Source: an uncultured Nitrospira sp. (GTDB lineage: Bacteria; Nitrospirota; Nitrospiria; Nitrospirales; Nitrospiraceae). Taken from it: a DNA stretch of 16,617 bases. This document shows positions 2,425 to 14,975 of this stretch, in pieces; position 1 is the first letter of the stretch, and the number at the start of each line of letters is the position of its first letter. Position numbers and translations under genes: made by a program. The stretch spans positions 1-16,617 of the forward strand of contig CAMLHQ010000070.1 in NCBI GenBank assembly GCA_946479785.1, written 5' to 3'. The notes beneath the pieces are model-generated. The model saw nothing but the letters and a program-made list of their open reading frames with translations, was not told where the DNA came from and did no database searches.

Positions 2425-2544
2425 ATGAATGAGCATGGATCACCGAGAAGCATGAACACAGGCTGGTTCTTTGGATACTGGCAGAAGAAAAAGGAGGCCG
2501 TATGGCGGCGCCGTCTCAGCTTTCGATCGGAGAAGAATTCATGA
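2425..2544 (+). CDS. Possible small Trp/Lys/Arg-rich peptide (39 aa) between pump and adaptor
   Basis: This short frame begins 2 nt after the pump stop, with AAGG six bases before its ATG. It encodes 39 residues: four Trp (GWFFGYW and a later VW) and a strongly basic second half (QKKK, WRRR). Its TGA overlaps the in-frame ATG at 2541 of the adaptor gene in an ATGA arrangement, as in translational coupling. Against it: the usual adaptor start (2502) lies inside it with a strong Shine-Dalgarno site, the length is within chance, and I recognise no family. It could equally be leader DNA. Confidence 0.18.
   Translation: MNEHGSPRSMNTGWFFGYWQKKKEAVWRRRLSFRSEKNS
2491..2497 (+). promoter_or_regulatory. 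Strong Shine-Dalgarno site for the adaptor gene
   Basis: AAGGAGG lies four bases before the ATG at 2502 and favours that start. A second in-frame ATG at 2541 has GGAG eight bases upstream (2529-2532) and is a real alternative. Confidence 0.6.
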
Positions 2545-3707
2545 TGCAGCCACGGACGATGAAACGTCTTTATATTGTCATGGGGAGTGTGCTGGCCGGG
2601 GTGTTCATTGTCATCATGACGCTGGTTGGGCCGCACGGGCGAGACGAGTCTGTTTCGTCTCCGCCCCAGGACAACCGAGAGACGGCAGAGACGGTCAGGG
2701 GTCCGGCGGTTCAAGTGCTAACCCCACAGCGGCGCGATATTGTGAGGTCGTTGACTATTCCAGCCAACATTTCTCCCTGGCAGCAGGCCACGCTCTACGG
2801 AAAAGTGTCGGGTTATCTTAAATGGATCGGATTTGACAAAGGCGATGTCGTCAAGCAAGGGGAACTGCTCGCCGTGATCGATGCCCCCGAGATAGAGGAC
2901 CAATACAAGCAGGCCGAGGCCGACTATGCCATCAAGAAAGTCACCTATGAGCGGTACCTGAGCGTCTGGAAAGACAATCCAGATATCATCGCCAAGCAGG
3001 ATGTCGATGTGGCAAAGGCTACGGCGGAATCCGCCAAGCATCAGCGAGACAGCCGGCGGAACTTGATGGATTACACCAAAGTGTACGCACCCTTTTCTGG
3101 CGTGATCACGGCGCGATTTGCGGATCTGGGAGCGTTGATTCAATCTGCCACCGGTTCCGCTACGCAAGCCGCCCCCCTCTTTACGGTTATGGATCTCAGC
3201 AAGCTCCGAGTTTACGTCAGCGTTCCTCAGGAATCTGCATTGCTGGCCAAACCTGGCATTCCGGCGGTGTTGACTGCCCGAGAGATTCCTGACAGAGAGT
3301 GGAAGGCTTCGGTTACCAGAACCACCGACTCCTTGGACCCAGCAACCCGCACCTTGTTGGTCGAGATTGACATCCCGAACGAAAAGCACGAACTCCAAAC
3401 GGGAATGTTTGTGATGGCGACTCTGTTTCTCGAGCAACACCCCAACAGCCTTGCACTTCCGCCTGCCGCCGTTGTCTCCGGGAAAACACGCGATGAGAAA
3501 TGGGTGTTCGTTGTTGAGCAGGGGAAAGCGCACCGAAGGCCTATTCGGACCGGCATCGACGACGGAGTGTGGATCGAAGTGATCGATGGTCTGAAGGGCG
3601 AGGAAGAGGTCGTTGTCGTGGGCAAAAGTGGCCTATCGGATGGTCAAGTCGTGACGGTCTCAAACTATGACCTGCCAGCTGGCCAGCCGGCCCGGCAGAA
3701 GATGTAA
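2502..3707 (+). CDS. RND efflux periplasmic adaptor (membrane fusion protein)
   Basis: Adaptor of the HlyD/AcrA type that links the inner-membrane pump to the outer membrane channel. From the start at 2502 it has 401 residues; from 2541 it has 388. A short basic N-terminus (MKR) is followed by one hydrophobic anchor, LYIVMGSVLAGVFIVIMTLVG (split here as LYIVMGSVLAG and VFIVIMTLVG). There is no lipobox cysteine, so it is membrane-anchored by a helix. In order (401-residue numbering): first biotinyl-lipoyl half with VSGYLKWIGFDKGDVVKQG (about 102-120), a short alpha-hairpin (about 128-188), second lipoyl half VYAPFSGVITARFADLGALI (about 194-213), then beta-barrel and membrane-proximal domains. 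It lies 78 bp after the pump and 12 bp before the first channel gene, so one transcript is likely. The pump-before-adaptor order is the reverse of acrAB. The start choice is the main uncertainty. Confidence 0.93.
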   Translation: MAAPSQLSIGEEFMMQPRTMKRLYIVMGSVLAGVFIVIMTLVGPHGRDESVSSPPQDNRETAETVRGPAVQVLTPQRRDIVRSLTIPANISPWQQATLYGKVSGYLKWIGFDKGDVVKQGELLAVIDAPEIEDQYKQAEADYAIKKVTYERYLSVWKDNPDIIAKQDVDVAKATAESAKHQRDSRRNLMDYTKVYAPFSGVITARFADLGALIQSATGSATQAAPLFTVMDLSKLRVYVSVPQESALLAKPGIPAVLTAREIPDREWKASVTRTTDSLDPATRTLLVEIDIPNEKHELQTGMFVMATLFLEQHPNSLALPPAAVVSGKTRDEKWVFVVEQGKAHRRPIRTGIDDGVWIEVIDGLKGEEEVVVVGKSGLSDGQVVTVSNYDLPAGQPARQKM

Positions 3708-3719
3708 CGAGGAAGATTG

Positions 3720-5168
3720 GTGATCTGCGCAGACAGAATCTCGACCAGGAGCATCGGGCTTGTCATAGTCATGGCTCTGATTGGCTCGACGAGGGCGGGG
3801 CACCAGTGCTTTGCTGCAACCGAAAGCGTTGCCATCGCGGTCAGTTCGACCGTCGTTCAGCCCCTCGCAACGCGTCAGGGCGAGGTCTTACGGTTAGATG
3901 AAGCGATCCGCATCGGATTAGAACGTCATCCGTTGATCGAACGCTCACGCTATAGCTCACTGATCGCGAAGGCCCTGACCCGCCAAACACAAGGCGAACG
4001 CTACCCCTGGCTAGAGGCCTCGGTCGCGGAGAGCAGCGGTTCTCTCCGTATCGTGACCAGCGATGGCAAGATCGTTCATAACCAAGGCGGTCATGGGTTC
4101 GATCCCGGCGGAGCTTTGGCCAAACACAACCAGAACATGTTAACGGGGGGGCTGATTCTCAACCAACTCATCACGGACTTCGGCTATACCGCCCACCGCA
4201 TTTTGGCCAATGAGGCCAATGAAGCTGCAAGCGAGAAGGAAATTCTGACGAACAAGGCCTTTGTGATTCTGACTGTCCAGAAGGCCTATTTGGATTGTCT
4301 CCTTCAACAGAACCTCGTGGATATTGCTGGTGAAACGATCAAGACACGAAAAGCGGTTCGAGACCTAGTCCAAGCCCTGTACAAGAACCAACTCAAGTCG
4401 AAGGTGGACCTGGATCTCATTCTGGTCGAAGTGTCGAATGCGGAACTGGTGTTGATCAGGGCGCAGAACGATCTCAAACAGGCGTTTGCCACATTGAACA
4501 ATGCCATGGGGATCCAAGGTGTCAATCACTACGAACTGCAGAAGATTCCTATAGCGATCACACCAACTATGGCCCCTGAATCACTGGTGGCAGTGGGGCT
4601 CAAGGACCGGCCTGAGTTGCTGGGCAATCGTGACCGTCTGGTGGCCAGCGAAGAATTGCTCAAGGCAGTCAAGGCCCTGAATTTTGGCTCCCTCTCTGCT
4701 GTTGGTTCGATCGGCATCACGAAATACGGCGATGTGCATGATGCCGGCATTCCTTCCGATGGCGTGGCCCCCTTCTGGGGGGGAGGCGCCACGATGAAAT
4801 TTCCAATCTTCACAGGATTCCGGATTCAGAATCAGATCAAGGAAGCAGGCCATCATAAGGGAGAAACGGAGCAGGAGTTGCAGAACCTGGCGAACGAGGT
4901 CGTTCTGCAAATTGTGCGTGCGTACCTGACCCAGACAACGAATGCAGAGCAGATTGCGCTCGAACGAGAGCGCGTCGCGTTTGCCAAAGAGGCATTGGTT
5001 CTGGCGCAAGAGCGGTATCGACTGGGTCTGAGCCCAATCATAGAAATCGTGCGAGCGACAACTGCACTGTTTGAGTCGGAGTCGCGCCTAGCAGAAGCGC
5101 TCTACATTTATAAAACCAGCGAGGCTGTGATCGCGTATGCCACGGGACAAGATTACAAGCGTTTCTAG
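3720..5168 (+). CDS. TolC-family outer membrane efflux channel, copy 1 of 3
   Basis: Outer membrane factor that forms the exit duct of a tripartite efflux complex. I place the start at GTG 3720 because GAGG (3709-3712) is seven bases upstream; TTG 3717 would add one residue. The N-terminus has a signal-peptide-like hydrophobic run (SIGLVIVMALIG) with cleavage possible near residues 26-33. The two OEP repeats are visible: EAIRIGLERHPLIERSRY opens the first, LITDFGYTAHRILA marks a strand/helix junction, FPIFTGFRIQNQIKEAG marks the same place in the second repeat, and RYRLGLSPIIEIV comes near the end. The protein ends in Phe, as expected for BAM-inserted beta-barrels. Length (482 aa) is normal for TolC-type proteins. 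A cysteine at residue 193 (AYLDCLLQQ) sits in the predicted periplasmic helix and is shared with the two following copies. The last 32 nt overlap copy 2. Confidence 0.93.
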   Translation: MICADRISTRSIGLVIVMALIGSTRAGHQCFAATESVAIAVSSTVVQPLATRQGEVLRLDEAIRIGLERHPLIERSRYSSLIAKALTRQTQGERYPWLEASVAESSGSLRIVTSDGKIVHNQGGHGFDPGGALAKHNQNMLTGGLILNQLITDFGYTAHRILANEANEAASEKEILTNKAFVILTVQKAYLDCLLQQNLVDIAGETIKTRKAVRDLVQALYKNQLKSKVDLDLILVEVSNAELVLIRAQNDLKQAFATLNNAMGIQGVNHYELQKIPIAITPTMAPESLVAVGLKDRPELLGNRDRLVASEELLKAVKALNFGSLSAVGSIGITKYGDVHDAGIPSDGVAPFWGGGATMKFPIFTGFRIQNQIKEAGHHKGETEQELQNLANEVVLQIVRAYLTQTTNAEQIALERERVAFAKEALVLAQERYRLGLSPIIEIVRATTALFESESRLAEALYIYKTSEAVIAYATGQDYKRF

Positions 5169-6522
5169 ACACCTGGTTATCTGGCTGATCGTTAGTCTTC
5201 CAGCGTCAACATCGTTTGCCGCCGACATGACACCGCCGCGCTCCCTGCCTGTGGCTGGGGCCATGCTCGCCTGGGAGCAGGCTATCCAGATGGCGATCGA
5301 GAAACAACCGCTTATCAAAGCGGCACAACACGAGGTTCTTGAATCCCAGGCTGTGATGAAGCAGATCGAATCGGCCAATTATCCTCAAGTCACCGGCCTC
5401 TATGCGAGTACAGGGGGCAACACGCGGGTCCTGGCGAATCTAGGTATCTCCGGTTCGCTACCGAAACCGACCAACTATCTCACAACGCCTGGTCTGCGCG
5501 TTGACCTGCTCATCACCGACTTCGGACACACGGCTCACCGCATTCTGGCGCAGAAATCGTTTACAGCCTCTGCCGAGAAGGCCGTGCTCACCACGAAAGC
5601 GCTGACGATTCTCAATGTGGAACAAGCCTATTTGAATTGCCTCAAGCAACAGCGGTTGGTGGACATCGCACGAGAAATCCTCAAGGAACGGGAGCTGATC
5701 CGGCAACAGGCAGAGACGTTTTATCGGCACCAGTTGCGGTCCAAACTCGATCTCGACTTTGCCTCGGTCGAAGCGAACCGTGCAGAGGTCGTTCTGATTA
5801 AAGCACAAAACGATCTCACGACAGCCTTCGCGGCGCTCAACACCGCGATGGGCATCCAGCCGGGAGCCGAGTATGTATTGGATAAGGTCACGCTTGCGGT
5901 CAAGCCAGCGGCGCCGCTCGAATCGCTATTCCCGGAAGCACTGGAGAAACGACCGGAGTTACTCGGGAGCAAAGATCGGATTCAGGCGGCAGAGGAAGCG
6001 GTGAAAGCTGCCAAGGCTCTGAACTACGGTAGCATTACTGCCATCGGCACAGCAGGATACACCTGGTGGGGTCGAGAGGAACAGCCCAGCGGGAAGGATG
6101 TGTCTAATCCCGGAGCCAAGCTCGGCTGGTGGGGAGCCGGGGGAACCAGCTCCTTCCCCTTATACACCGGGGGCCGGATCCAGGGCCAGATTGAGGAATC
6201 GGAAGCCCGCAAGGGTGAGACCGAATCAGACAGTCGAGCCATCGCGAACGATGTCGTACTCCAAGTCGCCCAAGCGTACTTGAGTCGACTGACGGCAGAG
6301 CAACAAATCAAAGTTGCAGAAGAAAAGGTCGCCCAGGCACGAGAGGCGCTTACTCTGGCACGGGAACGATATAAGACGGGGCTCAGTTCCGTTCTTGACG
6401 TGGTCACTGCAACAGCGGATCTCCTGAGCGCCGAAGTCGGGTTAGCGCAGTCTCAATACGACTATCGGGCCAGCGAAGCAGCCCTCGCCTATTCCACCGG
6501 AGCTGAGTATGCACGCTACTGA
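5137..6522 (+). CDS. TolC-family outer membrane efflux channel, copy 2 of 3
   Basis: Second of three tandem outer membrane factor paralogues, 461 residues. The ATG at 5137 lies inside copy 1, giving a 32-nt overlap. It is the only conventional start before the signal peptide; the nearest SD-like GAGG (5121-5124) is 12 bases away, so translation may depend on coupling. The signal peptide is clear: basic N-terminus, HLVIWLIVSLPAS, and cleavage near SFA-A (residues 28-29). The same landmarks as in copy 1 appear in the same order: LITDFGHTAHRILA, AYLNCLKQQRLVDIA (Cys168), FPLYTGGRIQGQIEESEA, RYKTGLSSVLDVV, and a C-terminal Tyr (GAEYARY). It also ends by overlapping the next gene (14 nt). Sequence similarity to its neighbours is obvious by eye across the full length, so it is a duplicated functional-looking gene with no frameshift. 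Confidence 0.93.
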   Translation: MPRDKITSVSRHLVIWLIVSLPASTSFAADMTPPRSLPVAGAMLAWEQAIQMAIEKQPLIKAAQHEVLESQAVMKQIESANYPQVTGLYASTGGNTRVLANLGISGSLPKPTNYLTTPGLRVDLLITDFGHTAHRILAQKSFTASAEKAVLTTKALTILNVEQAYLNCLKQQRLVDIAREILKERELIRQQAETFYRHQLRSKLDLDFASVEANRAEVVLIKAQNDLTTAFAALNTAMGIQPGAEYVLDKVTLAVKPAAPLESLFPEALEKRPELLGSKDRIQAAEEAVKAAKALNYGSITAIGTAGYTWWGREEQPSGKDVSNPGAKLGWWGAGGTSSFPLYTGGRIQGQIEESEARKGETESDSRAIANDVVLQVAQAYLSRLTAEQQIKVAEEKVAQAREALTLARERYKTGLSSVLDVVTATADLLSAEVGLAQSQYDYRASEAALAYSTGAEYARY

Positions 6523-7969
6523 GCGTCGACTGCTGCGGTGCCTGCGGGCCGCGTCAACCCACGGATCGAGGCCGCGATGGTTCGTAGCTGCACTTGTCTT
6601 GACAACTATCCTCGGGGTGGCCGAACACGCCTGGTCAGGTACGCCTCCACAGGATCCTGCTGCTGCCCCCTCGAAGGACTCGCCAGACAAGCTGCCTCAG
6701 ACGAAGGGAGCGTATTTGGGGTATGAGAACGCTATTCGCATTGGGCTTGAACAGCATCCCACACTCCGGAGAGCCAAAGAGACAGCGATGGCTGCGGACG
6801 CGGTCACGGAACAGGCGAAATCGAAATACTATCCTGAACTGAATGCGTATGCGATTCAAACAGGCGGCACCATCCGTCCGCTAAGCGCCTTCAATATCGC
6901 CGGTGCACAAAATAAACCGACCTCGTATGTCGAGAGCGCAGGTTTTCGCGCAGACCAGCTCATTTATGATTTTGGCCAGACTGCCCATAGGACTCTGGCT
7001 GAGCGAGCTGGCCAAGAGGCAGCGGAAAAGGACATTCTCACTCACAAGGCGTTGGTAATTCTCAGAGTCCAGCGGGCGTACATCCACTGCCTACGGCAGA
7101 AGCGTCTCGTCGAGATCGCGGAAGAAACGGTCCGGGAGCGTGGAGTCCTGCGCGATCAAATCGCGCTTCTGCACAAGCGTGAATTGAAATCCAAGCTGGA
7201 TCTTGATCTGATCTCTGTGGAGTTAAAGAACGCTGAGGTTCAACTTGTGCAGGCGAAAAACGAATTGCGCGCGGCCTTCGCGAGCCTGAATAATGCGATG
7301 GGGGTGCGGGGACCAGAAGATTACACGCTCGAAGATGTCCCTGCCTCGGCGATTCTCTCAGGTACACTGGAATCGTTGATTCAGCGAGCCATGGAAGAAC
7401 GTCCGGAACTGCTCAGCACGACGGACAGGATCAGGCAGGCTGATGAGAAACTTAACACGGCACAGGCCCTTAATCTTCCTACGATCTCGGCTCTCGGCAT
7501 GTACGGCGTCATTCACTTCAGCGACGCGCCGACGAACCAATATGGCGGTGCCCATCCAGGACAAACCAATCTCTGGTGGGGCGCGGGAGCGACGGTGTCC
7601 GTGCCGCTGTTTACCGGATTTCTCATCGAAAATCGCACAGCGGAGGCTCGTCAGCAGAAATACAAGGCGGAACAAAAGAAGATCGACTTGTCTAATCGGA
7701 TTGCGCTGGAAGTCACAGATGCGTACGTCACGTTGCAGACAGCCATGCAGCAGATCAAAGTGGAAGAGAAAGAAGTCGAGTCGGCACGCAGCGCGCTCAC
7801 TTTAGCGAAGGAACGGTACCGGCTTGGGCTGGCGTCGATCGTTGACGTCACGACAGCGACCATGGAGCTCCTGATGGCCGAAGTTCGTCTGTCGGAGATA
7901 AGTTATGCAGTCCAAGCCGGGGTGGTTGCCGTAGCCTATGCGACCGGGCAAACGTATCAGAACTTTTAA
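6509..7969 (+). CDS. TolC-family outer membrane efflux channel, copy 3 of 3
   Basis: Third tandem outer membrane factor paralogue, 486 residues, and the last gene of the efflux operon. Its ATG overlaps the end of copy 2 by 14 nt and has GGAG (6499-6502) six bases upstream. The N-terminus is long and basic before the hydrophobic core (WFVAALVLTTILGVA), with cleavage likely around residues 41-44. It keeps the OEP landmarks LIYDFGQTAHRTLA, AYIHCLRQKRLVEIA (Cys194), VPLFTGFLIENRTAEA and RYRLGLASIVDVTTATMELL, and ends in Phe. The stop at 7969 is followed by 173 bp before the convergent otsB. It differs from copies 1 and 2 at many positions, so the duplication is not recent. Confidence 0.93.
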   Translation: MHATERRLLRCLRAASTHGSRPRWFVAALVLTTILGVAEHAWSGTPPQDPAAAPSKDSPDKLPQTKGAYLGYENAIRIGLEQHPTLRRAKETAMAADAVTEQAKSKYYPELNAYAIQTGGTIRPLSAFNIAGAQNKPTSYVESAGFRADQLIYDFGQTAHRTLAERAGQEAAEKDILTHKALVILRVQRAYIHCLRQKRLVEIAEETVRERGVLRDQIALLHKRELKSKLDLDLISVELKNAEVQLVQAKNELRAAFASLNNAMGVRGPEDYTLEDVPASAILSGTLESLIQRAMEERPELLSTTDRIRQADEKLNTAQALNLPTISALGMYGVIHFSDAPTNQYGGAHPGQTNLWWGAGATVSVPLFTGFLIENRTAEARQQKYKAEQKKIDLSNRIALEVTDAYVTLQTAMQQIKVEEKEVESARSALTLAKERYRLGLASIVDVTTATMELLMAEVRLSEISYAVQAGVVAVAYATGQTYQNF

Positions 7970-8126: not shown

Positions 8127-8145
8127 TGAGTCATCCACGGACTCA
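8127..8145. terminator. Small inverted repeat at the convergent junction, possible weak terminator
   Basis: TGAGTC and GACTCA form a perfect 6-bp stem around a 7-nt loop. The repeat overlaps the otsB stop codon. On the + strand it is followed by GTATTTT, so it could weakly end the efflux transcript. The stem is short and not GC-rich, and the T-run has only four bases. On the minus strand no T-tract follows. Confidence 0.2.
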
Positions 8146-8970
8146 GTATTTTCGGTAGGACTTTCTTTTTTCTTCACTGTTGCTGCTATCGGAATAAGGA
8201 GATTCCGCCGGGCGATCCATCTCATGGACCAGAAAACGAAGCACTTCTTCCACCTCTCCCTGATGGTGGAGATAGAATCTGGCGTGCGAGCCGGCGTGTT
8301 GTCCGACGCGGACCCCCATTGTCAATCCTCTGGTCAAAGCGAATACGGTTTCGTCCGTGTCCTCGTCGCCGATATAGAACAATCCGGTCAGTCGAAGATG
8401 CTCCATTAACGCGAGCGCGGCAGGGCCTTTCCCTCCCTGTCCGGAAGGCAGCACATTAATGGAGTATTTTCCCGGAATGAGATGAGGTCTTGGGGTAAGA
8501 CGGCTGAGCAACATGAGCGCCTTCGCGGAAGACTCGACCGGGTCCGGCGCCCGGCGAAAATGCACCGTCAGAGAGTAGCGTTTGTCTTCAACCTCCGCGC
8601 CCAGTGCCGTCAACGATTGTGCCATACCGGTCGTCATCTCCCCGCTCCAATGCGCACAGATCGCTTCAGCGCGATCCAGTGCGGCAGCGGCCACCAACGG
8701 GCTCTCGATGCCGTGATTGCCAATCACGTGTGGAACAGTCCCGTTGACCCGTGGCGTCACATCGGAGAGGGCCCTTCCTGAGACGACGGCGCAGGCGGCC
8801 AGCTTCGATAGCTTGTGTAACCATTCGAGACAGAGTGGAGACATCTTCACGGCGTGGCGATCGGACGAGATCGGAGCCAGCGTGCCGTCGAAATCGAAGG
8901 CATAAAGAATCGACTGTGTTGCGACTGATCGCAGGGCGCAACGGCCTTCGTCGGACAAGAGGTATGTCAC
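8143..8970 (-). CDS. otsB: Trehalose-6-phosphate phosphatase
   Basis: HAD-superfamily phosphatase that converts trehalose 6-phosphate to trehalose in the cytoplasm, the second step of the OtsA-OtsB pathway. The GTG at 8970 is chosen over a longer open frame to 9177. It has GGGAGG six bases upstream, its protein begins just before the catalytic motif, and the extra 69 residues would lie wholly within otsA. The 275 residues are close to E. coli OtsB in length. HAD motif I is DFDGTLAPI with Asp26 and Asp28, motif II is VVSGRALSDV, the trehalose-phosphatase signature GNHGIE follows, the Lys region is in SGQGGKGPAAL, and motif IV is IGDEDTDETVF. The last ~20 residues are a Ser/Glu/Lys-rich tail (SSNSEEKRKSYRKY) outside the fold. 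The start overlaps the otsA stop as GTGA, so the two are translationally coupled. Confidence 0.95.
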   Translation of the reverse strand: MTYLLSDEGRCALRSVATQSILYAFDFDGTLAPISSDRHAVKMSPLCLEWLHKLSKLAACAVVSGRALSDVTPRVNGTVPHVIGNHGIESPLVAAAALDRAEAICAHWSGEMTTGMAQSLTALGAEVEDKRYSLTVHFRRAPDPVESSAKALMLLSRLTPRPHLIPGKYSINVLPSGQGGKGPAALALMEHLRLTGLFYIGDEDTDETVFALTRGLTMGVRVGQHAGSHARFYLHHQGEVEEVLRFLVHEMDRPAESPYSDSSNSEEKRKSYRKY

Positions 8971-11216
8971 ACCTGTCCTCCCGTCGTGGTCCGAGCGTCT
9001 CGCGTTCCCGTTTGCCGCACCATGCGGGCCCGTTGTCGCATGCGGGCTGCGTCCATGAGCATGCGCCCCGCCCAGCGATAGACATTGAACTCCTGGACGA
9101 TGCCGCGCATGCTGCGCATCCGGGCCCGCTGCTCCGTCGGCGGCATGGTGAGCGCGACATGCAGAGCTGCGGCGCACTGGTCAATGTTGTAGGGATTGAC
9201 CACCAGGGCATCAGGTAGTTCGGTGGCTGCGCCAGTGAACTGGCTCAGGATGAGCACCCCTTGTTCGTCGTCCCGCGCCGCCACGAATTCTTTTGCCACG
9301 AGGTTCATACCGTCATGGAGACTGCTGACGATGCATAAGTCGGCGCCGCGGTAATGAGTCATGACGTGCTGGGCGTCGTGGTGTTCCATCCGTAAATGAA
9401 TGGGGAGATAGCCGTCACGACCGAAGCGTCGGTTGATCTGGTCGGCTGAGGCGGTGACCTGCCGTGCAAACTGTTGGTACTCCTCGATTTTTGTCCTGCT
9501 GGGGGCGGCTATCTGCACAAATGAAAAGCGCCCGATCCACTGCGGCTCCAGTTCCAGCAAGCGTTCGACCGCCAGAAACCGTTCGAGGATGCCTTTCGTA
9601 TAATCGAGGCGTTCGACGCCGATTCCCACCCGATGGTCGGACCGAAGACCGTACCGGTCTCTGATACGTTCACGACACACGGCGACGGGCGGCTGCTGCG
9701 AGAGTGCGCGGCTCGGCCATTCGATCGAGATCGGATAGGGATTGACCGCCGTCAGTTTGCCCCCATAGGAAATAGTGGAGCTGTCCCAGTCGATCCTCGT
9801 TTCGAGAGATCGATCCACGGTGTTGATGAAATTGCTGCAGTGAAAGCGCGTGTGAAACCCCAGAATGCTGCTACCCAGGAGTCCTCCGAGGATCTCCCGA
9901 TACCAGGGGCAGATGGCATAGCGTTCCGGATTGGGCCACGGGATATGCCAGAACGTAATGAGCGTGGCATGCGGCAGTTGATCTCGGACGATTTTCGGCA
10001 CCAGCGCGAGGTGAAAATCCTGGATAAGCACGACCGGATTGTCGGTCTTCGCTTCTTCCAGCACTGCCAAGGCGAACCGCTCGTTAATATTCTTATACTG
10101 CTCCCAATCGGAGGACCGAAACACGGGACGCACGTGAGCGAGATGGCACAGGGGCCAGATGCCTTCATTGGCGAATCTGTAGTAGTAGCCGTCCTCTTCC
10201 TCGGGCGTCATCCAGACCCGCCGGAGGTCGAAGGAAGGACGCTCGGGGGGAACCCGGACGTGGCTGCGGGCATCGACGACCTGACGGTCCGCGGTTCCGC
10301 TCCCGTGGGCGATCCACACGCCTGAACAGGCGCGCATGACGGGCTCCAACGCCGTGACCACGCCGCTGGCCGGGACCTGCACTTCGATTTCCTGATCCTT
10401 CCAGTTGTGAAGATACGGCTCGCGGTTGGAGACGGTGAGCACTTCATCTCCGGCCAGGTGATCGCGGAGAATCGTCTTGAGCGTGGCCGGCGTCCAGCTG
10501 ATCTGACTTTCGTCTCTCATGCGCTTGTCCGATTCCAGATTGTGGATGAGGGCACGAAGGTCCTTGGCTACCGGCTGTAATTCAGGGCCGTGGTGCTGAC
10601 CCTTAATCAACGCGATCAGTCCCTCGCCGCGTAGCATGGCCCGGACATCGGTCACCCATCCCCGCCAGCTCAAATGCGCAACGAGGACCGTGACGAGCGA
10701 GATGACGGCGCCGATAACCGCAAACAGATAGAAGAGATACCACTTGGTGTCGGTGCTGCGGCGCTGGACCCAGCTCATGTCGTGGACCAGCATGAGGCGA
10801 CCTATGACACGGCCGTTGTCCTCGATTCCCACGCCCGACACGTGTACCGCTCCGCGTGGCAACTGCAACAAAGATGTCTGGCCGGCCCTGATTGTGTCGC
10901 TGCCGTCGCATGCAATGGCATCTGGGTAGGTTTGCGTCTTGTAGAGCAGCCGGTTGTCCCGGTCACAAAACCCGATGGCAAATAGCCGTTCGTCTTGAAT
11001 GATGCGGTTAAAATAGGCGAGCAATTTCGCTTTGGGTTCGGCGGCAAGAAGCTCCACTATTGGGCCTTCCACCATGCGACCGATGAGTTCTGACCGGATT
11101 TCGGTATCCCGCACAAACCATTTCAGCGTGAGCGTGTCGACCAAAGGGATGACCGCATAGGCGAGGCCAGCGAGCACCAGCGCCAACGGAAACAGGAATC
11201 GCAGCGACAAGCGCAT
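8967..11216 (-). CDS. otsA: Membrane-anchored trehalose-6-phosphate synthase with N-terminal sensor-like module
   Basis: GT20-family glycosyltransferase that joins a nucleotide-activated glucose to glucose 6-phosphate to give trehalose 6-phosphate. At 749 residues it is about 275 longer than E. coli OtsA. The excess is N-terminal: a membrane helix (about 6-28), an extracytoplasmic domain (about 29-157, with Cys84 and Cys103), a second helix (about 158-182) and a HAMP-like linker (about 183-235). The GT20 domain runs from about 255 to 725 and keeps VSNREPY (262-268), a glucose-6-phosphate/acceptor region YYYRFANEGIWPL (344-356), QDFHLALVP (399-407), FWHIPWPNPE (422-431), ERLDYTKGI (535-543, donor-phosphate Arg/Lys) and HDGMNLVAKEF (634-644). 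These residues suggest an active enzyme. The ATG has AAAGGTGA upstream. It is followed by otsB with a 2-nt overlap. The sensor role is inferred from the layout. Confidence 0.93.
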   Translation of the reverse strand: MRLSLRFLFPLALVLAGLAYAVIPLVDTLTLKWFVRDTEIRSELIGRMVEGPIVELLAAEPKAKLLAYFNRIIQDERLFAIGFCDRDNRLLYKTQTYPDAIACDGSDTIRAGQTSLLQLPRGAVHVSGVGIEDNGRVIGRLMLVHDMSWVQRRSTDTKWYLFYLFAVIGAVISLVTVLVAHLSWRGWVTDVRAMLRGEGLIALIKGQHHGPELQPVAKDLRALIHNLESDKRMRDESQISWTPATLKTILRDHLAGDEVLTVSNREPYLHNWKDQEIEVQVPASGVVTALEPVMRACSGVWIAHGSGTADRQVVDARSHVRVPPERPSFDLRRVWMTPEEEDGYYYRFANEGIWPLCHLAHVRPVFRSSDWEQYKNINERFALAVLEEAKTDNPVVLIQDFHLALVPKIVRDQLPHATLITFWHIPWPNPERYAICPWYREILGGLLGSSILGFHTRFHCSNFINTVDRSLETRIDWDSSTISYGGKLTAVNPYPISIEWPSRALSQQPPVAVCRERIRDRYGLRSDHRVGIGVERLDYTKGILERFLAVERLLELEPQWIGRFSFVQIAAPSRTKIEEYQQFARQVTASADQINRRFGRDGYLPIHLRMEHHDAQHVMTHYRGADLCIVSSLHDGMNLVAKEFVAARDDEQGVLILSQFTGAATELPDALVVNPYNIDQCAAALHVALTMPPTEQRARMRSMRGIVQEFNVYRWAGRMLMDAARMRQRARMVRQTGTRDARTTTGGQV
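8977..8982 (-). promoter_or_regulatory. Shine-Dalgarno site that fixes the otsB GTG start
   Basis: On the minus strand GGGAGG lies six bases before the GTG at 8970, inside the end of otsA. With the GTGA stop/start overlap this settles the otsB start against the longer upstream frame. Confidence 0.7.
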
Positions 11217-11264: not shown

Positions 11265-13049
11265 ATGTATCCTTATGCCCTCATCGGGAATTGTCATATT
11301 TCGACCCTCATCAATGCAAACGGCACCGTAGAGTGGATGTGTCTGCCGCGACCCGACAGTCCGCCGATCTTTGGCCGATTGCTGGACCCTGACGGAGGCC
11401 ATTTTGCCATTACAAGTCCGATGGTCTCGGCGCAACCATCCTACCGCCAAAACTATATACCCAACACTAACATTCTTACCACGACCGTGGCTTTGACGAA
11501 CGGCGATGCCTTTCAAATCACCGATTTTTGTCCGAGGTTCGAGCAGTATGGCCGCATCTATAGGCCCCCTGCCCTGTTCAGAATTGTTGAGCCTTTGCGG
11601 GGCACTCCGGCCATTCAAGTGAGTTGTCGGCCGGTCTCCGGATGGGACAAAACCGTTGTGACCCCTGTACGGGGCAGCAACCATCTGAGGTACGACATCC
11701 GCGGGGAACCCCTTCGCCTGCTGACGAACATGCCATTGACCTATTTATGCGAGGAAATCCCGGTCGCACTGACTCGGAAATTTTACTTTGGGCTGACATG
11801 GGGACTTGGCGTAGAAGACGACCTCATCAAGGTGACGCACGACTTTCTTGAGCAAACCACAAGGTACTGGCGGACATGGGTCAAGCACTGCTCGGTGCCC
11901 CTGTTGCATCAGCAGGAGGTCATCCGGTCCGCGCTGGCTTTGAAGCTTCACTGTTTCGAGGACACGGGAGCGATTCTGGCGGCAATGACGACCAGCCTGC
12001 CGGAGCAGGTGGGTGGACCACGCAACTGGGATTATCGTTATTGCTGGCTGCGAGACGCCTATTTTACACTGACGGCGTTCAACAACCTGGGTCATTTCGA
12101 AGAGATGGAAAGCTTCTTGAACTTCCTGCTGAACCTCGCCCTGACCCATGAACATTCGCGTGATCGGCTTCGCCCTGTCTATACGTTGAGTCAGGGATTA
12201 CCTCTTCCGGAGATCGAACATGCGAATTGGGCCGGATATTCGGGTAGCACGCCGGTTAGAAGCCACAACTTGGCCGCCGATCAGGTGCAAAATGACGCCT
12301 ATGGTGAAATGATCCTCACGTTCACGCCGATTTTTTTCGACGAGCGGTTCGTCGATCTCCGGACGAGAGACCTCGACGGCCTGTTAGCACACTTGGCGCA
12401 GCTCTGTGCGCGCAGCATCGGCAAGCGGGACGCTGGTTTATGGGAAATTAGGAGCGGCTTGCAGGAGCATTCCTTTACGAATCTGCTCTGCTGGGCTGGG
12501 ATGGAACGGCTGGAGCGGATCAAGCACGCAGGTCATCTCCGTGCGATCTCGATGGATCTGAGCGCCGAACGACTGCGTGCCGCACAGGCCTTGCTTCGCG
12601 GGGTGCGAGATGGCGCCGTTCGAAACGGGCCGGACGATTCCAGTCATGATGCGGCGCTGGCGCAGCTCGCCATCCTGGGCTATCCCGATCGGAAGCTGTG
12701 CGAATCCACCGTGTCCCAGATCATCCGCGCGCTGTCGCTAAAGCAGGAGAATGCCGAGACCGGGTTCTTTTACCGTTACATCCGCGACGACGACTTCGGG
12801 AAGCCGAAGGGAGCGTTCGTGATTTGTTCGTTCTGGATCGCACAAGCGCTCGCCCGCCTGGGACGGGTCACCGAGGCGCGAATCATTCTCGATCGCGTGT
12901 TAGCGGCGGCCAATTACGTCGGATTGTTCTCCGAGCATTTCGTCCACGAAACAAGCACACAGTGCGGAAATTTTCCTCAAGCCTACTCACATGTCGGCCT
13001 TATCAATGCCGCGTTCGCCGTCAGTCCTCCCTGGAGCGATGTGCTCTGA
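11265..13049 (+). CDS. GH15-family glycoside hydrolase (glucoamylase/trehalase type)
   Basis: Inverting alpha-glucosidase of family GH15, 594 residues, with no signal peptide and so probably cytoplasmic. The N-terminal beta-sandwich begins YALIGNCHISTLINANGTVEW (split: YALIGNCHIS and TLINANGTVEW) and carries the usual substrate-loop text PRPDSPPIFGRLLD. The (alpha/alpha)6 catalytic barrel has NWDYRYCWLRDAYF (254-267), the likely general acid Glu394 in GLWEIR, and the likely general base Glu557 in LFSEHF followed by GNFPQAYSHVGLINAA. Members next to otsA/otsB are common in bacteria. Some GH15 proteins are true trehalases (mycobacterial), others act on maltodextrins, and sequence alone does not decide. 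The neighbours suggest trehalose or alpha-glucan turnover. The ATG lacks a clear ribosome site. The gene ends 158 bp from the convergent response regulator gene. Confidence 0.9.
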   Translation: MYPYALIGNCHISTLINANGTVEWMCLPRPDSPPIFGRLLDPDGGHFAITSPMVSAQPSYRQNYIPNTNILTTTVALTNGDAFQITDFCPRFEQYGRIYRPPALFRIVEPLRGTPAIQVSCRPVSGWDKTVVTPVRGSNHLRYDIRGEPLRLLTNMPLTYLCEEIPVALTRKFYFGLTWGLGVEDDLIKVTHDFLEQTTRYWRTWVKHCSVPLLHQQEVIRSALALKLHCFEDTGAILAAMTTSLPEQVGGPRNWDYRYCWLRDAYFTLTAFNNLGHFEEMESFLNFLLNLALTHEHSRDRLRPVYTLSQGLPLPEIEHANWAGYSGSTPVRSHNLAADQVQNDAYGEMILTFTPIFFDERFVDLRTRDLDGLLAHLAQLCARSIGKRDAGLWEIRSGLQEHSFTNLLCWAGMERLERIKHAGHLRAISMDLSAERLRAAQALLRGVRDGAVRNGPDDSSHDAALAQLAILGYPDRKLCESTVSQIIRALSLKQENAETGFFYRYIRDDDFGKPKGAFVICSFWIAQALARLGRVTEARIILDRVLAAANYVGLFSEHFVHETSTQCGNFPQAYSHVGLINAAFAVSPPWSDVL

Positions 13050-13207: not shown

Positions 13208-13879
13208 TTACGGCCGGGGATCCAACTCGATTAAGCCTTTCCTGATCGCAAGAATTGCGGCCTGTGTGCGGTCGTAGACTTGGAGCTTGTGGAAGATATT
13301 CCGCACGTGATTCTTTACAGTCTTCTCGCTGAGGTCGAGGCTATTGGCGATCTCTTTATTGGTTTTCCCATCCGCGACCAACCGCAATACGGTTATCTCG
13401 CGCTCGGTCAGATCGTGTTCCACCCAGGCCGGCTTTTTCCCCTTTTTTTGTGCCATAAGCGAAAATTCGGCGAGGATTTTGCTGGCCACGGAGGGATGAA
13501 TCAATGACTCGCCTCGGTAGATGGCGCGGATGGCGGCGACGATTTGCGACGACTCCGAGTCTTTCAAGAGATAACCGGTAGCCCCGGCGCGGACCAGATC
13601 GAAGATGTATTGCTGTTCTTCATACATGGTGAGGGCGACGATGCCGATATGCGGAAACTCCCGCTTGATTTGGCGCGTAGCTTCGACGCCACCCATACGC
13701 GGCATGCTGACGTCCATGAGAATCACGTCGGGCATCAATGCCTTGGTTTTCTCGACAGCCTCTATTCCGTCCTGAGCCTCACCGACGACGTTGATGTCGT
13801 CCTTGGTCTTGAGGATGGCGGCCAGCCCTTCCCGTACCACCCGATGATCGTCTGCGATCAGGACCTTAATCTTTTCCAT
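13208..13879 (-). CDS. NarL/FixJ-family two-component response regulator
   Basis: DNA-binding response regulator, 223 residues. The start is ATG 13879 (MEKIKVLIADDH), with AAGGAG ten bases upstream. A longer frame to 13972 only adds residues read out of frame from the kinase gene. The receiver domain (about 1-120) has Asp10/Asp11, phosphoacceptor Asp56 in VILMDVSMP, Thr84 and Lys106 (LLKDSES), a complete active site. The C-terminal LuxR-type helix-turn-helix (about 155-218) includes LTEREITVLRLVADGKTNKE and LDLSEKTVKNHVRNIFHKL. The gene overlaps the kinase gene upstream by 14 nt, so the two are a co-translated pair. Targets are unknown; the nearest genes on either side are GH15 and, beyond the kinase, nrdR. 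Confidence 0.95.
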   Translation of the reverse strand: MEKIKVLIADDHRVVREGLAAILKTKDDINVVGEAQDGIEAVEKTKALMPDVILMDVSMPRMGGVEATRQIKREFPHIGIVALTMYEEQQYIFDLVRAGATGYLLKDSESSQIVAAIRAIYRGESLIHPSVASKILAEFSLMAQKKGKKPAWVEHDLTEREITVLRLVADGKTNKEIANSLDLSEKTVKNHVRNIFHKLQVYDRTQAAILAIRKGLIELDPRP

Positions 13880-14975
13880 CGTCCACGCTCTCCTTCTTCC
13901 CGAGCGGCACTTCGACGACAATCGTGGTGCCGCGTCCCTTTTTCGAATCGATCCTTGCTTCGCCTCCGACAAGTTTCGCCCGCTCCACGATGCCGCGCAC
14001 GCCGAAGTGATCCCATTTTTCCGGATTGTGAAGGACCTGTTGCATGTCGAATCCGACGCCGTTGTCTGTAATTGTGACCCTCAGTGTATCAAGCTCGATC
14101 ACCAATCGCACGGAGACGCAGTCGGCCTTGGCATGTTGGACGACGTTGCTCAAGGCTTCCTGGACGATACGAAACAGGAAGATCTTGGTGCGAGGAAACA
14201 AAATCTGCTCATCCCCGGACGCGGTGAATTCAGTCTTGATGTGGTATTGGGTCTCGTAAGATTTGAGATAGTTCGTGAGACCCGGAATCAGCTCCATCTT
14301 GTCATACTGGAGGGGCCGGAGGTTAAAAATGACCTGACGCGCCTCTTGGATCGCCAGTTTGAGTTGCTCCTTGCTCTCGCGCAGAGTTGCCAAACTGGCT
14401 TTGGGATTTTTGCGGATCAACTGCTGACAGAGTTCCAGCTTGAAGTTGACGCCGGCCAGGCTCTGGACCAGGCCGTCGTGAATTTCGCAGGCGATTCTCG
14501 TTCGCTCCTCCGTGACGGCGGCGCCTGTTTCCTTGACGTAGAGGCGATACAGTGATTGATATTTGTTCAGTGTCTTCTCGATTTCCGCGGTCGCTCTGAT
14601 GCGCGCCTCGATCAATTCCCACATGAATTTTGCGCTGGCGCCGCCGAGAATCGTGACACCCATGCGGTGCACATCCTGAAGAGATTGCCAGACCTCAGAG
14701 CTGCCGGACACGTCGATGATGAGGTCGACCCGCTCCAGGTTCAACAGCATGCGATAGTCGCGCGTGACGGGAATCTTCAATCGTTTGGCGAGCGCAAGTC
14801 CGGGCGCGGCGGCATTGATCTCGGCCACCGCCACGATATCCACGAGAGGATCGTTGGCAAAAATCTCCATGAGGGCTGTGCCGCCCCGTCCGGCCCCGAT
14901 GATCGCCACGTGCGTGGCGCCGGATGCCGCCGTCTTCTGCGCGCGTTTCGACGCTTTAGCCTGTGCGGTCGGCAT
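13866..14975 (-). CDS. Soluble histidine kinase with N-terminal Rossmann (NAD(P)-binding-like) domain
   Basis: Sensor histidine kinase of the NarX/DegS type, 369 residues, with no membrane segment. After a short Ala/Lys-rich start, residues 21-120 look like a Rossmann fold. A beta strand and GAGRGG (Gly27, Gly29, Gly32) fit GxGxxG, an acidic residue (Glu52) ends strand 2 (VDIVAVAEIN), and APGLALAKRLKIPVTRDY and VDLIIDVSG follow. This resembles the NAD-binding half of homoserine-dehydrogenase or Gfo/Idh-type enzymes, without their catalytic part. A helical linker (about 120-158) leads to the HisKA_3 dimerisation domain with His166 in ACEIHDGLVQSLAG. The ATPase domain follows with N-box EALSN (Asn277), DNGVGFD (304-310) and FGVRGIVERAKLVGG. 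It overlaps its response regulator by 14 nt and starts 93 bp after nrdR. Binding of a nucleotide is inferred from the motif. Confidence 0.93.
   Translation of the reverse strand: MPTAQAKASKRAQKTAASGATHVAIIGAGRGGTALMEIFANDPLVDIVAVAEINAAAPGLALAKRLKIPVTRDYRMLLNLERVDLIIDVSGSSEVWQSLQDVHRMGVTILGGASAKFMWELIEARIRATAEIEKTLNKYQSLYRLYVKETGAAVTEERTRIACEIHDGLVQSLAGVNFKLELCQQLIRKNPKASLATLRESKEQLKLAIQEARQVIFNLRPLQYDKMELIPGLTNYLKSYETQYHIKTEFTASGDEQILFPRTKIFLFRIVQEALSNVVQHAKADCVSVRLVIELDTLRVTITDNGVGFDMQQVLHNPEKWDHFGVRGIVERAKLVGGEARIDSKKGRGTTIVVEVPLGKKESVDDGKD

Follow-up and report, generated by a model that had tools for sequence, protein, structure and literature searches.

Three ancient TolC-family paralogues behind one RND pump and adaptor in Nitrospira: a candidate heterotrimeric exit duct

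Genes of the efflux locus

The window analysed here, a 16,617-nt stretch of an uncultured Nitrospira sp. (contig CAMLHQ010000070.1), carries three consecutive genes for outer membrane factors (OMFs) of the TolC family, designated OMF1, OMF2 and OMF3, together with one pump gene of the resistance-nodulation-division (RND) type and one gene for a periplasmic adaptor (membrane fusion protein, MFP) (Table 1). Matches to PF00873, TIGR01730 and PF02321 place pump, adaptor and OMF genes in one unit. The pump gene begins before the window edge; its match starts at position 286 of the PF00873 profile, and full-length orthologues have ~1085 residues. The three OMF open reading frames (ORFs) are intact and lie on a common strand. 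The OMF1 ORF starts with TTG at 3717; position 3720, given earlier as its start, is a GTG one codon further. Since 18 other genomes have an orthologous block, a chance arrangement was dismissed. One OMF gene per RND tripartite system is usual, though not universal; the window and the 18 genomes have three, as far as contigs allow.

The original prediction had described three intact, diverged TolC paralogues after one pump and one adaptor, each with both OEP repeats, and our analysis confirmed this description. Pairwise identity among OMF1, OMF2 and OMF3 is 40-45%, and each has two stretches matching OEP (PF02321), at 155-190 bits against a cut-off of 22. The AlphaFold model of OMF1 has the TolC fold, with four barrel strands, long H3 and H7, and split H2/H4 and H6/H8. 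The N-termini of all three proteins are hydrophobic, as judged by eye in the translations. The C-terminal aromatic residue noted earlier is present in the window copies but does not hold across orthologues, 6 of 18 OMF1 orthologues ending in P, Q or H.

The overlaps of 32 nt and 14 nt were found where predicted. An ATG at the same distance recurs in 9 of 18 OMF1/OMF2 and 10 of 18 OMF2/OMF3 junctions. In the remaining junctions the first candidate start lies mostly 15-168 nt past the stop codon; two junctions had no candidate start within the searched range. Both overlap ATGs of the window sit in Tyr-Ala codons of the conserved C-terminus. The overlaps are recurrent across trios, yet they are not a defining feature, and a conserved coupling device was not upheld.

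Table 1. Features of the efflux locus, with coordinates in the window
Feature	Position	Strand	Remarks
RND pump (HAE-type permease), C-terminal part, ~794 aa	39..2423	+	PF00873, E 4.6e-164
Periplasmic adaptor (membrane fusion protein)	2502..3707	+	TIGR01730, 199.7 bits (cut-off 94.9)
OMF1, TolC-family channel paralogue 1, long extracellular loop 1	3717..5168	+	PF02321, 155 bits
OMF1 extracellular loop 1, residues 109-138	4041..4130	+	30 residues in the window's clade, 47-51 in the other
OMF1 Arg446	5052..5054	+	Aligned with D374 of the TolC aperture; OMF2 and OMF3 have Thr
OMF1/OMF2 overlap, 32 nt	5137..5168	+	ATG at -32 in 9/18 junctions
OMF2, TolC-family channel paralogue 2	5137..6522	+	PF02321, 190 bits
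OMF2 extracellular loop 1, ~residues 95-112	5419..5472	+	18 residues, hyper-conserved
OMF2/OMF3 overlap, 14 nt	6509..6522	+	ATG at -14 in 10/18 junctions
OMF3, TolC-family channel paralogue 3	6509..7969	+	PF02321, 166 bits
OMF3 extracellular loop 1, ~residues 121-138	6869..6922	+	18 residues, hyper-conserved

Distribution, age and genomic context of the trio

A scan of ~85,000 species, one genome per species, with a three-row alignment as query revealed 36 loci. Ten of these (L001-L010) were close, all titled Nitrospira, Nitrospiraceae or Nitrospirae/Nitrospirota; the other 26 showed 20-31% identity. In L001-L010 each gene was 58-84% identical to its own orthologue versus ~38-50% to the other two, and the order was 1-2-3, contig ends leaving L008 with genes 1-2 and L010 with a piece of gene 1. 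In the family of G005 (175 genomes), 86 genomes had a match: the trio was present in 18 (G001-G010, G017, G047, G048, G058, G158, G172, G173 and G174), and loci with one such channel gene (single loci) occurred alone in 68. All 18 carriers keep the order 1-2-3 as far as contigs reach. Among the 19 trio loci examined (window plus 18 genomes), all three genes were intact on one contig in 14; contig ends fall inside or beside the trio in G008, G010, G158 and G173.

No family locus had two or four copies of the trio clade. In a phylum draw of 395 genomes, at least three matches were found in known carriers only; 15 other genomes had two low-scoring matches, and the pairs listed were on different contigs. 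These counts rest on up to nine scored candidates per genome in the family and up to four in the phylum, so that distant extra copies could escape. A viral collection held no relative of the trio channels. One trio carrier, Nitrospira sp. KM1, is in pure culture and its genome is complete. Nitrospira sp. NS4, described in the available part of its paper as enriched and isolated, has a member in all three lists of the best 120 homologues of each paralogue.

A maximum-likelihood (ML) tree of 65 rows was built with ten outgroup channels from the phylum; 21 of 72 family rows were dropped (near-duplicates and cut pieces among them) and 14 new channel proteins above 180 bits were added. With support given as bootstrap/SH-aLRT, the trio members formed one clade (99/98) and the single channels its sister (96/87). 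The OMF1, OMF2 and OMF3 clades each received 100/100, and OMF1 grouped with OMF2 (99/95). Within each paralogue subtree the same split was repeated, G006/G007/G009/G174 versus the rest. The 65-row tree resolved the basal order of OMF3, single channels and OMF1+OMF2, with a program warning about long outgroup branches joining; an earlier quick tree, which had two distant rows as outgroup, had not settled it. The topology indicates that two duplications predate the last common ancestor of the carriers and that the trio has been co-inherited since. Pairwise dN/dS for OMF1-3 was 0.07-0.43 in 15 of 17 comparisons, the other two being saturated at synonymous sites. The top value was that of OMF1 between G008 and G009, where the adaptor was equally high (0.40). 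No copy is consistently relaxed, and all three are under purifying selection.

Single loci number 76 in the family, 70 in the 68 trio-less genomes and six inside trio carriers (G002, G003, G010, G047, G048 and G158). G021 and G022 have two each, on separate contigs, and two of the 76 (G146 and G003) are pieces at contig starts. All 12 single loci that were opened read RND-MFP-one OMF, the order of the trio loci; the pump is cut in L083, and L085 has two pump-adaptor pairs ahead of one channel. Three further single loci showed the same order, and one more contig showed the channel only. The 12 single channels are closest to OMF3, with 39-44% identity versus 34-38% to OMF1 and OMF2. Single-system pumps are 52-73% identical to the partial window pump (81% over a 156-residue piece in L083), and single-system adaptors are 49-64% identical to the window adaptor. 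Five full-length single-system pumps show 64-73% identity to the window pump, and trio-linked full-length pumps 66-69%. Near single systems intermix with trio pumps in the RND and adaptor trees. One pump lineage therefore occurs with either one or three channel genes. The trio proteins end ~8 residues past an AYATG-like motif; 20 single relatives have longer, variable tails.

Pump and adaptor lie directly upstream of the trio on the same strand in 12 of the 19 trio loci (window, G001, G003 with its pump cut, G006, G007, G008, G009, G017, G047, G048, G058 and G174). G002 has an adaptor piece upstream, G173 has pump, adaptor and OMF1 start on a second contig, and the contigs of G004, G010, G158 and G172 start too late to show upstream genes. 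By pump profile search, with contig-end pieces counted as one gene, a lone pump of the subfamily was found in about 11 of the 18 carriers (G001, G004, G005, G006, G008, G009, G017, G058, G172, G173 and G174); G009 may have a second copy, since two of its pump pieces share 46 profile positions. The second subfamily pump of G002, G047 and G048 belongs to a single-channel system, and that of G003 presumably does likewise. G010 has one pump plus a second adaptor beside its single channel. G158, whose trio contig is cut, showed a single-type pump only. In G007 a second subfamily pump (L007 3-2018, 64% identical) stands in tandem just upstream of the trio system. Two adaptors score above 450 bits in G002, G010, G047 and G048; the other 14 carriers have one apiece.

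The remaining carrier, G005, has adaptor and pump on the opposite strand, facing the trio (L005 12754-17135, - strand). In quick trees both fall with the single-channel systems of G002 and G016 (support 100 and 97). The G005 trio is intact beside this single-channel-type pump; no single channel gene was found among all 25 candidates scored in G005, and the pump search showed no second subfamily pump there. G005 is thus apparently a case of pump exchange in which the trio was kept as a unit. The quick RND tree puts the window pump close to pumps of the single type (88); the window adaptor falls inside the trio clade (98). Some 100-residue slices of the window pump are nearest to single-channel pumps (up to 86-88%) and others to trio pumps, a mosaic that we read as probable recombination.

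More distant channel genes were also observed. In G007 (L007 12873-14240) and G174 (L071 15158-16507) a distant TolC relative with 22% identity lies downstream of the trio beside another pump; that of L071 is the first gene of an OMF-adaptor-pump unit of another type. G340, outside the family, has two unlike channel genes (262 and 112 bits) adjacent to each other and flanked by two adaptors (L091 6146-8991).

Divergence of tips, barrel and exit loops

Domain limits were taken from the AlphaFold model, and paralogue and orthologue identities were computed over 14 loci. Within genomes, paralogue identity was 0.50-0.65 in the two periplasmic tips; it fell to 0.19-0.42 across the four barrel strands and to 0.09-0.38 across the exit loops. 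Between orthologues of the two clades, the barrel strands showed 0.52-0.76. In the equatorial part paralogue identity was 0.31-0.34, but orthologues were low there too (0.37-0.52). The adaptor-docking tips have thus stayed alike, and the barrel strands and exit loops have diverged.

Loop 1 is strongly conserved in two of the copies, with an identity between clades of 0.87 for OMF2 and 0.81 for OMF3, versus 0.56 between two clades of single channels. Variability was measured in the best 120 of 219, 184 and 658 homologues (the three paralogue lists), mostly of the window's own clade, and in a hand-picked set of 20 of the 76 single channels. Relative to each protein's own upper helices, loop 1 entropy was 0.72 in OMF1, 0.26 in OMF2 and 0.40 in OMF3, versus 1.47 in the single channels. 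Loop 1 is the least variable segment of OMF2 and shares the lowest value with S1 in OMF3. The entropy of S1 and S2 was also below that of the single channels, though hardly so for S1 of OMF2 (1.39 versus 1.49). Loop 2 was conserved in OMF3 only (0.56), compared with 2.24 in the single channels. Over the counted stretch, loop 1 length was 33 in 113/117 OMF1 and 21 in 120/120 OMF2 and 120/120 OMF3 sequences; loop 2 length was 14 in 120/120 OMF1, 18 or 19 in 120/120 OMF2 and 17 in 120/120 OMF3. With these near-fixed lengths and low entropies, the S1-loop1-S2 hairpin looks fitted to a constant partner.

The low variability of loop 1 in OMF2 and OMF3 led us to reject the idea that this exit loop diversified for evasion; for loop 2 of OMF1 and OMF2, and for loop 1 of OMF1 between clades, the idea is still allowed. 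Several residues in the exit loops and barrel ends (H121, H137 and H341 of OMF1; H336 and D339 of OMF3) are 97-100% conserved in the best 120 homologues of each. Such His and Asp residues at the exit could conceivably form a metal or substrate site.

By alignment, all three copies have an acidic residue where TolC has its aperture residue D371 (E/D/D in OMF1/2/3). The D374 place is occupied by R/T/T, so the two acidic aperture rings of TolC are not found together. Of the 119 OMF1 homologues that have a residue at the D374 place, 108 have Arg; Thr occupies the place in 116/118 OMF2 and 108/120 OMF3 homologues, and Gln in 20/20 single channels. The place is Asp in TolC, OprM and OprN and Thr in EefC, and aperture residues vary within the family, as with Ser/Thr in EefC (PMC8277102, cited here and below from its available part). 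The mismatch is no bar to TolC-family membership, because the family itself varies at this place. An OMF1 homotrimer would place three Arg residues at the aperture and a heterotrimer one, which is suggestive only.

Contacts between protomers were considered at H4 and H7, with the register set by the A159C-S350C cross-link of TolC (PMC8277102). The charges disfavoured one heterotrimer order and could not separate the other from homotrimers; the register was uncertain and the charges were weighed by hand. This line of reasoning was dropped.

Assembly of the channel and known systems

Taken together, the ancient triplication, the constant copy number and order, purifying selection, the shared tips, the paralogue-specific features of barrel and loops, and the single adjacent pump and adaptor argue that the three genes probably encode an obligate 1:1:1 heterotrimeric channel of the TolC type that works with one adaptor ring and one RND trimer. 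A physical 1:1:1 assembly with this stoichiometry, an asymmetric exit gate and the absence of functional homotrimers are what we infer from these observations. The ancestor would have been a homotrimeric channel encoded by one gene, like those of the sister systems. A first duplication would have separated OMF3 from the ancestor of OMF1 and OMF2, and a second OMF1 from OMF2. The copies would have retained their adaptor-binding periplasmic tips while beta-barrel and extracellular loops diverged, until each supplied a distinct sector of barrel and exit gate and none was dispensable. After export, the three proteins would assemble as 1:1:1, neighbours recognising one another chiefly via the barrel and the S1-loop1-S2 hairpin, and their near-equal tips would dock on a single kind of adaptor.

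Joint retention in 18 of 18 carriers is what a heterotrimer predicts. The original prediction had proposed a check in related genomes, and there the copies were not freely lost singly: all carriers keep the ordered trio, as far as contigs show. Several observations weigh against a heterotrimer. Fixed loops and joint retention would likewise be expected of three homotrimers with different exits, if all were needed. Published work leans towards homomers: in E. coli, obligate homomers make up about 55% of paralogue pairs, according to the available part of PMC7480870. The charges at H4 and H7 (OMF1 positions 241, 248, 411 and 418) are as compatible with homotrimers as with one heterotrimer order. 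Arg446 of OMF1 is replaced by Gln in 11 of 119 homologues, its loop 1 differs between clades (identity 0.49), and loop 2 is variable in OMF1 (1.27 times own helices) and OMF2 (1.43 times). In G172, the sole such carrier, OMF3 is broken by one TGA (L074 3040-4355), either through a sequencing error or because the copy is decaying. No family locus preserves a two-copy stage, which is odd for stepwise duplication.

The competing explanations differ in what they make of the rule of three. Three homotrimeric channels with their own exit properties might share the single adaptor and pump, as exits for different substrates or conditions. The alike tips, the barrel strands and loops that differ between copies and are conserved within each, and the homomeric majority of E. 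coli paralogue pairs (PMC7480870) all suit this arrangement; however, it fails to predict exactly three genes in 18 of 18 carriers (as far as contigs show) or an unbroken order, and occasional single losses would be expected under it. We consider it unlikely, though not remote. Protomers of one fold, made from adjacent genes, would meet while assembling, and nothing here fixes their stoichiometry, so mixed assembly, such as 2:1 trimers alongside homotrimers, has some appeal; the three-gene rule, together with loop lengths specific to each paralogue, suggests that every protomer has its set place, and we regard mixed assembly as rather improbable.

Separate homotrimers for different pumps, one of the alternatives offered originally, could draw on the tandem subfamily pumps of G007 and on the more distant RND pumps and adaptors that carriers also hold. 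This alternative was weakened and now seems very improbable: about 11 of 18 carriers have one subfamily pump only, the second pump or adaptor in G002, G010, G047, G048 and G158 sits with its own single channel gene, and the docking tips of the three copies are alike. Simple gene dosage, the other original alternative, or a transient tandem duplication finds agreement in the tandem overlapping layout. It was rejected, and retains practically no probability, by the 40-45% identity, the three 100/100 clades of ancient orthologues older than the carrier split, and dN/dS well below 1. The same evidence rules out a recent duplication or a decaying copy, and the earlier statement that no copy is decaying was upheld. 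For the heterotrimer, the balance tips modestly towards the fuller account: an obligate heterotrimeric exit duct with three barrel sectors and an asymmetric extracellular gate, evolved from a homotrimer by two duplications and kept throughout the history of the Nitrospira clade. It would be the first non-homotrimeric OMF, as far as the literature searched shows.

Other genes of the window lie downstream of the trio. Genes of the trehalose-phosphatase type and of glycosyltransferase family 20 (trehalose-phosphate synthase type) occupy 8143-11216 on the - strand and overlap by ~200 nt (8967-9177); a divergent GH15/trehalase-like gene (11265-13049) adjoins them. At 13208-14975 (- strand), a response-regulator-like gene (13208-13972) overlaps, in the longest reading, a histidine-kinase-like gene (13866-14975); both were named by eye.

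The usual description of OMFs is that of symmetric trimers. If the proposed assembly is true, the trio would be a natural three-gene channel whose one-gene version persists in sister systems, occasionally in the same genome. It would offer a ready experiment on the passage from a homomeric ring to an obligate heteromer, in which each protomer could be studied singly. The pure-culture carrier Nitrospira sp. KM1 makes the idea testable. Searching the text of the papers on KM1 and NS4 for TolC, efflux, outer membrane and RND gave no match. In the open-licence literature searched, as far as its available text goes, neither a heterotrimeric OMF nor a Nitrospira channel trio was reported; the available parts of PMC8277102 and PMC13082787 report no heterotrimeric OMF.

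Descriptions of the TolC/OMF family (PF02321; OprM, CusC, VceC) give its members as trimers and TolC itself as a homotrimer, and the OprM tail matters for adaptor pairing (PMC8277102); here there are three co-inherited paralogues, with Arg/Thr/Thr at the D374 place and an exit loop 1 that is conserved instead of variable in OMF2 and OMF3. The single-channel systems of the Nitrospira family share the gene order of the trio, and their channels form its sister clade. Unlike the trio, they have one channel gene, variable exit loops, and longer, variable C-terminal tails. The RND pump MdtBC, the sole heterotrimer named in the available part of PMC8277102, is similar in that paralogues jointly build a trimer inside a tripartite efflux system. 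MdtBC, however, is an inner-membrane pump made of two proteins, whereas the trio would form an outer-membrane channel from three genes. The proteolipid ring of the fungal V-ATPase is a hetero-ring of co-dependent paralogues that arose by duplication from a homomeric ancestor. That ring is eukaryotic and belongs to another protein family, and its likeness to the proposed Nitrospira channel is one of logic only.

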